This document shows, one piece after another, positions 40,971-43,704 of a DNA stretch of 64,000 nt. The stretch covers positions 204,952 through 268,951 of the forward strand of contig JAFDXR010000003.1 of assembly GCA_018267825.1 (NCBI GenBank), in the 5' to 3' direction. Below the pieces are notes generated by a model. The model searched no databases. It saw nothing but the letters and a program-made list of their open reading frames with translations, and was not told the DNA's origin. The DNA comes from Bacteroidota bacterium. GTDB taxonomy: Bacteria > Bacteroidota > Bacteroidia > B-17B0 > Aurantibacillaceae. Made by a program: the position numbers and the translations under genes. Position 1 is the stretch's first letter. Each line of letters starts with the position of its first letter.

Positions 40971-40995
40971 AAATCCCTGGTTAAGCCAGGGATTT
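40971..40995. terminator. Bidirectional terminator between purM and the ddl fusion
   Basis: The perfect 10-bp stem AAATCCCTGG-TTAAG-CCAGGGATTT is flanked by an A-tract on the left and TTTTTGTTTTT on the right. It serves purM on the plus strand. On the minus strand it overlaps the last codons and the stop codon (40981-40983) of the ligase fusion, so the hairpin there includes coding sequence. Confidence 0.85.
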
Positions 40996-43704
40996 TTGTT
41001 TTTCAAAATTCTTCTTCCCAAAATCGAGAATACTGTCTATAAACTCATAGGGTTTGTAATGGTTGATGGCCGCCTGGTGATAAATGCAGGTAGCGGGCGT
41101 CATACCCGGCAAGGAGTTTACTTCAATAAACACAACCTCAATGTGGTTGGCATCAAAAATGCGCACAAAAGCATCTATACGGCAATAACCAATAACCTGT
41201 AATACTTTAGCGGCTGCACCGAGTGTTTCTTTTACCTTATCCGAAATAAGTTGTCGTTCCTTCGGATCGCGGGAGTAGCGCGCAGGCGTAATGTTCTGCC
41301 CCTGCCCTGCCAGGAATTTCTCTTCGAGGCTAAGTACATCACCTTCGGCCAATGCTTCGCTGGCTTCAAACACTTCGTATTCGACCTCACCTTTTGCATT
41401 GAAACGTGTGAGCATGCCACCCGTGATTTCGAGGAAGTGTTTTGCGCCGTTTTTTGAAATCAGTTCTTCCACAAGGATTACGGTCTTTTGCGGAAACTCT
41501 TCTTTTGGCTTAATATGCAATACGTCCGCTGCTTTTAAATCGAGTTCTTCGGTAGGCCGGAACATCAGTGTAGCAAAGGCTTCGAACTCTTCGAATGTTT
41601 TTATTTTCTTTACCGCACTGCTGCAGCCATCGTCCACCGGTTTGGCAATGAAAGGATATTTGTATTCATTTTTGAGAATCTCTTTCAGTCCGTTTTTGTT
41701 TGATTTCCAGTCGTCGGCTGTAATGAGCATGTGGCGGGCTACGAGGAAACCGTGCTTCAAGAGTATTTCGTTTGTTCTGTATTTATCGATGGTGATCGAA
41801 GAGCTTTCTTTACCCGAACCATTGTACGATAAACCAACCCGCTCGAGCTGTTGCTGCACGGCGCCATCTTCACCGGGTCTTCCATGAAGGGCGATAAAAA
41901 CCTGTTTTACCTGTGAGGCCAGTTCTTCGTATGTCCATGCCTGCGGGGCCTGCAGACTGCCTGAAGATGAATACCTATTGGTGATGAGCTTACATTCGGC
42001 AATGATCTGATTGATCACCGGGTGTATTTTCCAATGATAGATTTTTTCCTTGATATCGTCGGCATTATCCTTCAGCAGCAGGTTTACCGGGATTTTATAC
42101 AGTTCGTGTTTATCATTGCTCCCTGTCAGGAAAACCGGCACAGGTTCATACTTTTCGGAAGATGCCAGTTTTTCGTAAATATTGCGGCCGCTCTCTACGG
42201 ATATGTGGCGTTCAGAGGAATAGCCTCCCAACACCACTGCTACCGGCACTTTGCCGGATTGAGCCGTTTTCTGGTGCTCCATCGCATCATCCAGTTTTTT
42301 GAGCAGGTGATCGTAAGTGAAAGCACCTTTTGACTGACGAATCCGTTTTGCCAGGGAGGTGCGGATAATGAATGTGAGGAACTGCGATGGATTCAGACCG
42401 ATTTCAGCAGCCTGGTGAAAAAAGAAGGAAGATGGCATCATGCCGGATGTTGTATTCGGATCGTTCAGGAAAATTTTCCCGTCTTTGCTTAAAAACCCAT
42501 CAATACGGGCATACACGTCGAAATGAAGCTCAGAGAACAACTGTTCACAGGCCTTGCGTATGGCATTGATCTGATCATCGGGCAGGTCGATCGGTGTGAT
42601 TTTGCGCGATAATCCAGGCAGGTATTTACTGCGGTAATCGAACAGCTCCTTGCCTTTACGGATCTCCGTAGGCGGCAGCGCAATGGCTTTGGCAGTGCCC
42701 TGCTCCATCGAGTCCATATCTTCCACCACGATACAACTGAACTCCTTGCCCTCAATAAATCCTTCGATCAGCACGGTGCTTTCGCCATCGGTGCTTTCCA
42801 GTACAAAACCCTCTGTCGTTTTGCAGTGACTGTCCAGAAATTCAATCAGGCGATACGGGTTATAAAACACAGTCGTTATGCCCGCATGTGTAATGGCTAC
42901 AGGCATGCCGATACCTTCACGGATATCGGACAGACTACGCACAAAATCTGTTTTTTGTGCATCGCTGAGCTTATTCCAGGCAGCGCTATCGAGCCATTTG
43001 GTAAACAGTGCTTTCTCAACGGCTGCCATAAACTGATGTTCGTTGTCTTCAGCAAGGATGGTGACGCCGATGGATGAGCCCTGGTTGGCAGGCTTAATAA
43101 CCATGGGAAATCCGATCTTCGCTTTAGCCTGTGTCCAGGCATTTTTAACGGTTCCTGCAATCCAGGCCTGGCGGTCGATGGTGAAGAAATCAGGTGAATT
43201 GAACCCAGCCTGAACCATCAGTTTTTTCTGCACACTTTTGTCGATGCCGATCGATGAAGGTAAAATGCCGGAGCCTGAATATGGAATCTGCAGGTACTCG
43301 AAAAGTCCCTGGATACGGCCGTCTTCGCCATAAGGTCCGTGCAGGCAAAGGAAGGCGAAATCCATAAGTGTACTGAGTTCGCCCGGGTTAACCTTCTTAC
43401 CGATTTTGCTGATCATAGCGTCCTGTTCTGTAACGGTGAGCGGTCCCAGGTTTTCGGCGTAGTATTGATAGTCGGTATTGGAAGCCGGAATAAATTCAAC
43501 CGGTGGATAAAAATCGCGGATCGTTCCTTTATACACAAAGTTCCAGTCGAGTAATACAAAATTTCCGAATGAATCCACAAAAAGCGGGATCGCTTCGAAA
43601 AGTGATTTATTGAGGTTATCATAAACGGTACGACCGCCGGCAAATGAGATTTCACGCTCTTTGGAGCGGCCACCAAAAATAATTCCAATCTTTAATTTTG
43701 TCAT
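40981..43704 (-). CDS. Fused double D-alanine--D-alanine ligase
   Basis: A 907-residue protein with two full-length ATP-grasp D-Ala-D-Ala ligase modules (about residues 1-455 and 485-907). Module 1 has GGRSKEREIS with the catalytic Glu, LHGPYGEDG and a normal phosphate loop (KPANQGSSIGV), but the metal-binding ExN reads DPN (NDPNTTSGM, about 414-422). Module 2 has GGYSSERHIS, LHGRPGEDG and a canonical metal site (Asp844, Glu861, Asn863 in IEVNSLPGMT), but a changed loop (KPVDDGCSSAV). Cytoplasmic Ddl makes D-Ala-D-Ala for MurF and is normally a ~300-370-residue single unit. No other ddl gene is in the window. The reading frame is uninterrupted. Confidence 0.9.
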   Translation of the reverse strand: MTKLKIGIIFGGRSKEREISFAGGRTVYDNLNKSLFEAIPLFVDSFGNFVLLDWNFVYKGTIRDFYPPVEFIPASNTDYQYYAENLGPLTVTEQDAMISKIGKKVNPGELSTLMDFAFLCLHGPYGEDGRIQGLFEYLQIPYSGSGILPSSIGIDKSVQKKLMVQAGFNSPDFFTIDRQAWIAGTVKNAWTQAKAKIGFPMVIKPANQGSSIGVTILAEDNEHQFMAAVEKALFTKWLDSAAWNKLSDAQKTDFVRSLSDIREGIGMPVAITHAGITTVFYNPYRLIEFLDSHCKTTEGFVLESTDGESTVLIEGFIEGKEFSCIVVEDMDSMEQGTAKAIALPPTEIRKGKELFDYRSKYLPGLSRKITPIDLPDDQINAIRKACEQLFSELHFDVYARIDGFLSKDGKIFLNDPNTTSGMMPSSFFFHQAAEIGLNPSQFLTFIIRTSLAKRIRQSKGAFTYDHLLKKLDDAMEHQKTAQSGKVPVAVVLGGYSSERHISVESGRNIYEKLASSEKYEPVPVFLTGSNDKHELYKIPVNLLLKDNADDIKEKIYHWKIHPVINQIIAECKLITNRYSSSGSLQAPQAWTYEELASQVKQVFIALHGRPGEDGAVQQQLERVGLSYNGSGKESSSITIDKYRTNEILLKHGFLVARHMLITADDWKSNKNGLKEILKNEYKYPFIAKPVDDGCSSAVKKIKTFEEFEAFATLMFRPTEELDLKAADVLHIKPKEEFPQKTVILVEELISKNGAKHFLEITGGMLTRFNAKGEVEYEVFEASEALAEGDVLSLEEKFLAGQGQNITPARYSRDPKERQLISDKVKETLGAAAKVLQVIGYCRIDAFVRIFDANHIEVVFIEVNSLPGMTPATCIYHQAAINHYKPYEFIDSILDFGKKNFEKQKSLA

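Follow-up and report, generated by a model that had tools for sequence, protein, structure and literature searches.

D-alanine-D-alanine ligase (Ddl) is an essential enzyme and a target of D-cycloserine, and is usually studied as a homodimer with identical active sites; MurF is the user of D-Ala-D-Ala. E. coli DdlB carrying the Y216F substitution gains D-Ala-D-Lac activity. Fusion of homologous catalytic modules is known from the large subunit of carbamoyl-phosphate synthetase, in which two ATP-grasp modules that arose by internal duplication divide the labour between them. In lactic acid bacteria, Phe or Tyr at the position equivalent to DdlB-216 is reported to determine depsipeptide or dipeptide activity, respectively (PMC5996685). 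Among the full-text papers on Ddl or bifunctional ligases within our coverage, which takes in few of the subscription journals, none of those listed describes a tandem Ddl. Here we report on a gene from a 64,000-nucleotide stretch of Bacteroidota DNA (the window) which encodes two fused, non-identical Ddl modules, and which takes the place of the single ddl across much of the class Bacteroidia.

Two Ddl modules in a single polypeptide

The gene opens with an ATG and encodes 907 residues with no internal stop codon (Table 1). In Pfam analysis the protein matches Ddl_N in two places and Ddl_C in four (PF01820, 163.9 bits; PF07478, 169.4 bits), and it scores above the cut-offs of the NCBIfam Ddl models TIGR01205 (349.8 against 245.65) and NF002378 (354.8 against 243). 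A sequence-only reading of the window had described two complete Ddl modules in this protein, the first (M1) combining an ordinary phosphate loop with an altered DPN metal motif and the second (M2) an ordinary metal site with an altered phosphate loop; the open reading frame, the Pfam matches and the structural matches described below all agree with this description. The motifs on which it drew are present in the translation, with QGSSIG at residues 208-213 and NDPNTTSG at 414-421 in M1, and DDGCSSAV at 691-698 and IEVNSLPG at 860-867 in M2; the further changes Y216F and S281T in M2 had been overlooked. Relative to E. coli DdlB, M1 also carries an insertion of about 74 residues, within which the consensus DIREGIGxP is conserved.

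Table 1. Features of the tandem ddl gene, in window coordinates; residue numbers are those of the 907-residue protein.
Feature	Coordinates	Strand	Basis
Gene for the tandem Ddl (907 aa), the only ddl in its genome	40981..43704	-	ORF, Pfam, genome search
Module 1 (M1), residues 1-458; complete Ddl fold with DdlB position 216 occupied by Tyr	42331..43704	-	Structural match 6u1d, alignment
M1 phosphate loop, residues 207-213, ordinary GSSIG	43066..43086	-	Alignment
M1-specific insertion, ~74 residues (232-305), after the phosphate loop and before the residue matching DdlB E180	42790..43011	-	Alignment spacing
M1 omega loop FDYRSKY, residues 355-361; K360/Y361 equivalent to DdlB K215/Y216	42622..42642	-	Alignment, consensus
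M1 metal/acceptor loop LNDPNTTSGMMPSS, residues 413-426; D415 for DdlB E270, S420 for P275	42427..42468	-	Alignment
Linker, residues 459-484, helix predicted at 465-484	42253..42330	-	AlphaFold
Module 2 (M2), residues 485-907; complete Ddl fold with DdlB position 216 occupied by Phe	40984..42252	-	Structural match 1ehi, alignment
M2 N-subdomain, residues 485-578; K545 invariant; predicted to remain as a docked stub where the rest of M2 is lost	41971..42252	-	Stub alignments, AlphaFold
M2 phosphate loop DDGCSSAV, residues 691-698; C694 for DdlB S150, A697 for G153	41611..41634	-	Alignment
M2 omega loop LSLEEKFLAG, residues 791-800; F797 for DdlB Y216	41305..41334	-	Alignment, consensus
M2 metal/acceptor loop EVNSLPGMTPAT, residues 861-872; E861/N863 ordinary, T872 for DdlB S281	41089..41124	-	Alignment

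An AlphaFold2 model of all 907 residues, built with a 72-row alignment, has a pLDDT of 90.4 and a pTM of 0.90, the latter indicating that the relative placement of M1 and M2 is predicted confidently. In this model M1 and M2, each with a complete Ddl fold, are confidently predicted to dock rigidly on one another as a pseudo-dimer, in agreement with the covalent heterodimer that the sequence-only reading had considered possible. The M1 model (residues 2-457) superposes on the Thermus Ddl (6u1d) with a Z score of 37.5 and an rmsd of 2.0 over 323 of 326 residues, and the M2 model (residues 485-907) on the Leuconostoc D-Ala:D-Lac ligase LmDdl2 (1ehi) with a Z score of 38.7 and an rmsd of 2.6 over 342 of 360; for M2, DdlA (3i12) ties with 1ehi at a Z score of 38.4.

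Each module has its own invariant active-site changes

To compare the two active sites across the family, 118 fusion frames of at least 850 residues were reduced to 100 non-redundant proteins, which include the window protein and range down to 37% identity with it; these were cut into modules and aligned with 46 single Ddls, among them E. coli DdlA and DdlB. Residues are numbered, and their catalytic roles assigned, according to E. coli DdlB. In the window protein M1 departs from DdlB by E270D, A271P, P275S and T278M, and M2 by E17H, S150C, G153A, D211S, Y212L, Y216F and S281T. The M1 changes recur throughout, with E270D, Pro271, P275S and Met or Leu at 278 in all 100 fusions; E17H, S150C, Y216F and S281T are equally constant in M2, where G153A is seen in 96 and the omega loop is rewritten (D211S in 95/100, Y212L in 96/100). 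M1 retains the ordinary Ser150, Tyr216 and Ser281 in 100/100 and M2 retains Glu270 in 100/100. The residues D270, S275, C150, F216 and T281 occur in none of the 46 single Ddls, in all of which S150, Y216, S281, E270 and P275 are invariant. Positions 270, 275, 150, 216 and 281 are occupied by the same residues in a further 15 full fusions, drawn from other families that include the distant f88 and f92.

Both modules retain E15, S19, H63, K97, K144, E180, E187, K215, R255, D257, N272 and G276 in 99-100 of the 100 proteins, and K97, K144, E180, E187, K215, R255, D257 and N272 are without exception in either module. The mean pairwise identity over 1500 random pairs is 0.58 for M1 and 0.60 for M2; the two modules therefore evolve at an equally slow rate, and neither is decaying. 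Judged from these alignments, the asymmetry between the two active sites is fixed and is neither chance nor error, and the substitutions in M2 are conservative in kind (S to C, Y to F and S to T).

The fusion is the only Ddl of its genome

The source assembly comprises 4.82 Mb in 33 contigs and has a reported completeness of 100%. A search of the whole assembly for the Ddl N-domain returned two matches, both within the 907-residue protein. The corresponding search for the C-domain gave seven further matches in other frames, the best with 45.8 bits against 76.5 for the fusion, and none of these seven frames has an N-domain match. Since the N-domain matches are confined to the 907-residue protein, the fusion is the only Ddl of this genome; the separate ddl gene that the sequence-only reading had suggested looking for was sought and not found in this assembly.

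MurF is present in the source genome and in 149 of 149 class genomes, which implies that a D-Ala-D-X dipeptide is needed throughout. The source genome has two strong MurF matches (C27:201523-202773 and C32:420916-422184) in frames of 449 and 827 residues, the longer having the size of a MurF-alanine racemase fusion. We considered whether two MurF enzymes might account for two Ddl sites and rejected the idea, as two matches are usual class-wide regardless of Ddl type. By hand count a single MurF match is found in 5 of 70 fusion genomes against 14 of 79 others, which is a weak association and not an explanation.

Distribution of the fusion

In the family of the source organism 59 of 61 genomes match the 907-residue protein, mostly as a single open frame of about 900 residues, and in the order all 65 genomes of at least 90% completeness match it. 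By hand count, a sample of the class has the fusion in 70 of 149 genomes and 32 of 63 family codes, 66 of the 70 mainly in one frame and four split at contig ends; the search for other fused Ddl proteins that had been proposed from the sequence thus reveals a widespread architecture. Two Ddl_N matches are found in 68 of these 70 genomes and three in the remaining two (G131 and G135, where the genes are split in the assembly). Among the 79 non-fusion genomes of the class, 75 have one match, three have two weak matches (G096, G136 and G142) and G100 has none. Of the 396 genomes in a second sample of the class, about 164 contain an M1-type match by hand count, that is, 278 matches with an E value of 1e-15 or better less 114 weak single-type rows. 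Named relatives (n=18) are metagenome assemblies labelled Bacteroidetes, Bacteroidota or Bacteroidia. Taken at the level of sequence, about half of the sampled Bacteroidia seem to make an essential cell-wall building block by means of two fused, differently tuned copies of Ddl, of which other bacteria have a single copy.

Outside the class, none of the 111 genomes of other classes in a phylum sample carries the fusion; the only frame of more than 900 residues among the other-class loci (L115) was set aside as an ordinary Ddl with a chance open frame ahead of it. A search of 392 phylum genomes with M2 as the query (E 1e-18) gave five matches, all within full fusions, and so no M2 separate from M1. 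Genomes with the fusion and genomes with a single Ddl coexist within families f42, f51, f59 and f61, which suggests repeated replacement or transfer of the ddl type and indicates that one ordinary Ddl can replace the double enzyme, or vice versa. The single ordinary ddl of these mixed families was seen in G155 (f42), G501 (f59), G137 and G169 (f51), and G207 (f61).

Relatives that lack the ATP-grasp part of M2

Four near-complete genomes of family f90 encode relatives of the fusion of 551-590 residues, and Bernardetia sp. Wsw4-3y2 (Cytophagales) encodes one of 623 residues on a plasmid. These stub proteins consist of a complete M1, the linker and, in degenerate form, the N-subdomain of M2; the ATP-grasp part of M2 is missing. 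The Ddl N-domain count is one in each of the f90 genomes, and an M1-type module is therefore the sole Ddl in 4/4. Its metal motif reads HDPNTLPG or HDPNTIPG; in Bernardetia, where the plasmid sequence alone was covered, the motif is IDINTLPG. The presence of DPN in the sole Ddl of these four genomes indicates that Asp270 and the Pro that follows are compatible with an enzyme that supplies the dipeptide. We accordingly reject the view of DPN as a dead metal site and regard the motif, from comparative sequence evidence, as compatible with catalysis. The Bernardetia gene (L187:3998-5869) lies on a plasmid of 602 kb, and a possibly essential wall gene may thus occupy a secondary replicon.

A model of an f90 stub protein has a pLDDT of 92.4 and a pTM of 0.91, with values of 91-97 by block in the stub region, and the M2 remnant is confidently predicted to be folded and docked on M1. 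Lys545 of the window protein, which lies in the M2 N-subdomain, is invariant in the five stub proteins and in the 45 fusions co-aligned with them. In a tree the stub proteins and the full fusions are sister clades, moderately supported (stubs 97, fusions 86); a later gain of the full M2 would be a less simple history than its loss. Since the f90 genomes and the single-Ddl genomes G155 and G501 live without M2, its product is not generally essential.

Origin and genomic neighbourhood

A quick tree of 150 rows resolves M1, M2 and the single Ddls as three groups, with M1 as one clade and M2 as another and the position of the root among the three undecided. M1 and M2 have in common several residues that are rare in single Ddls (H430/H876, P439/P885 and K59/K545), a pattern which fits one internal duplication; we propose that a single ancestral Ddl was duplicated in tandem and that the copies then fused.

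A PASTA membrane protein is encoded directly downstream of the fusion in 22 of 45 loci, and no such neighbour lies beside the fusion in the window. The gene was considered as a conserved partner of M2 and rejected as such, for it also lies within 150 bp of the single ddl in 8 of 44 loci, 25 of which have just 1.5-kb flanks, and it instead marks the ancestral ddl site. In one genome of family f61 (G490, L222:2751-6344) a frame of 1197 residues joins M1 and M2 to a hydrophobic stretch (about 945-970), probably transmembrane, and PASTA domains, an arrangement which would tether the ligase, an enzyme of the cytoplasm, to a domain that binds the wall in the periplasm.

Discussion

Our preferred reading, which we advance tentatively, is of a covalent heterodimer in which M1 would make D-Ala-D-Ala and M2 would provide a second ATP-grasp site with a Phe-type pocket. 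M1 is very probably the housekeeping enzyme that supplies MurF with D-Ala-D-Ala, with the Glu-to-Asp exchange of its metal ligand as a tolerated variant. M1 is highly likely to be active as a ligase, and the status of the fusion as sole Ddl, together with the presence of MurF, suggests that it makes D-Ala-D-Ala. M2 would bind ATP and Mg2+ with its catalytic set intact and with an acceptor pocket retuned by C150, F216, T281 and H17. It keeps the residues required for binding ATP and two Mg2+ and for acyl phosphate formation, which makes the binding of nucleotide and metal likely; that it is a second site of ligation, with an acceptor specificity that is altered or relaxed, is a more tentative proposal, and its N-subdomain may double as a structural partner of M1. 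Against altered specificity in M2 stands S150C, which to our knowledge is not found in D-Ala-D-Lac ligases. The NCBIfam models for D-Lac and D-Ser ligases also count against it, as the protein falls far under their cut-offs (197.4 bits against 550 for the D_ala_D_lac equivalog, over the whole 907 residues), as do the stub and single-Ddl genomes, which manage without M2. An extended form of the proposal, with M1 making D-Ala-D-Ala and M2 a different dipeptide or depsipeptide, or an extension of the first, would have many Bacteroidia produce two peptidoglycan precursor tails, in the manner of carbamoyl-phosphate synthetase, whose fused ATP-grasp halves share out two ATP steps; we consider it possible but doubtful.

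The sequence-only reading had presented the two sites as complementary. The fixed asymmetry behind this idea is real; the idea that one half would want for metal binding and the other for a phosphate loop is unsupported, given DPN in the sole Ddl of four genomes and the catalytic Lys, Arg, Asp, Glu and Asn kept by M2.

The strongest alternative is that M2 is a non-ligating regulatory half, an allosteric subunit within the same chain, which would bind ATP, Mg2+ and either D-Ala or D-Ala-D-Ala and modulate M1 across the interface between them. Every M2 change sits in the phosphate loop, the omega loop or the acceptor pocket and spares the metal ligands, and the retained ATP, metal and substrate residues would fit a sensor site too; moreover, the ATP-grasp part can be lost while the N-subdomain is predicted to stay docked on M1, and one ordinary Ddl can substitute for the entire protein. 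However, the retention of K215, R255, D257, E270 and N272 in 100/100 goes beyond the need of a binding-only site, and the conservative nature of the substitutions also speaks against this alternative, which we hold to be possible though rather unlikely.

It is less probable still that both halves make D-Ala-D-Ala, the fusion being a device for dosage or stability and the fixed differences tuning kinetics only. The complete catalytic Lys/Arg/Asp/Asn sets of the two modules and the equal constraint upon them are in keeping with such redundancy, as is structure 1iow, whose title shows that the Y216F variant of E. coli DdlB can still be obtained as a complex with ADP and a phosphoryl phosphinate. 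A redundant copy would not, however, need an asymmetry that is invariant over 37-100% identity, at positions (S150, Y216, S281, E270 and P275) at which none of the 46 single Ddls varies. For M2, our order of preference therefore runs from a ligase of altered specificity, through a sensor, to a redundant D-Ala-D-Ala site.

The reverse assignment, in which ligation falls to M2 with its ordinary Glu-x-Asn while the DPN-bearing M1 is inactive or structural, draws on the replacement in every M1 of a Glu270 that is invariant in 46/46 single Ddls. We think it very improbable, as the four near-complete f90 genomes have a DPN-type M1 only, M1 retains E15, S150, K215, Y216, R255 and S281, and the sequence of M1 is nearer than that of M2 to single Ddls (4.1e-40 against 2.7e-16 for the respective best PDB matches). 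The joining of two adjacent ddl genes by an assembly or sequencing error at the junction, which the sequence-only reading had raised as a concern, is refuted by the independent genomes of the family (59/61) and class (70/149) that carry the fusion.

The fusion represents a natural, little-explored form of a well-studied antibiotic target. It comprises an obligate heterodimer with two invariant, unlike sites, and a clade in which one site is kept beside a docked remnant of the other. How subunits communicate, what the metal-bridging Glu270 does and how the Tyr/Phe switch sets specificity thus become directly testable in a single family of proteins. Should M2 make another product, the peptidoglycan of many uncultured Bacteroidia would depart from its textbook form.

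Comparison with known systems

The MurC-Ddl fusion of Chlamydia, described by NF011171, likewise joins Ddl to another module; the 907-residue protein scores 170 bits against the cut-off of 1015 for this model and has no Mur ligase domain among its Pfam matches up to an E value of 0.1. The Phe-type D-Ala-D-Lac ligases (Leuconostoc LmDdl2 and those of lactobacilli) resemble M2 in the Phe at the DdlB-216 position, present in 100/100, and one of them is the top structural match of the predicted M2 model, tied with DdlA; M2 differs from them in its additional Cys150 and Thr281 and in its omega loop. Carbamoyl-phosphate synthetase belongs to another family and acts on other substrates, and is an analogy to the fusion only in the way that it works. 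The closest relatives are the single-module, homodimeric Ddls (E. coli DdlA and DdlB, Thermus and S. aureus), which share with the fusion their Pfam domains, fold, catalytic residues and status as sole Ddl, and from which it is set apart by two non-identical modules per chain with invariant site changes absent from the 46 singles. By its domains and most of its catalytic features, as judged from sequence, the fusion is a member of the Ddl superfamily, and it departs from an ordinary Ddl in three respects: the single module, Glu270 in M1, and Ser150/Tyr216/Ser281 in M2.
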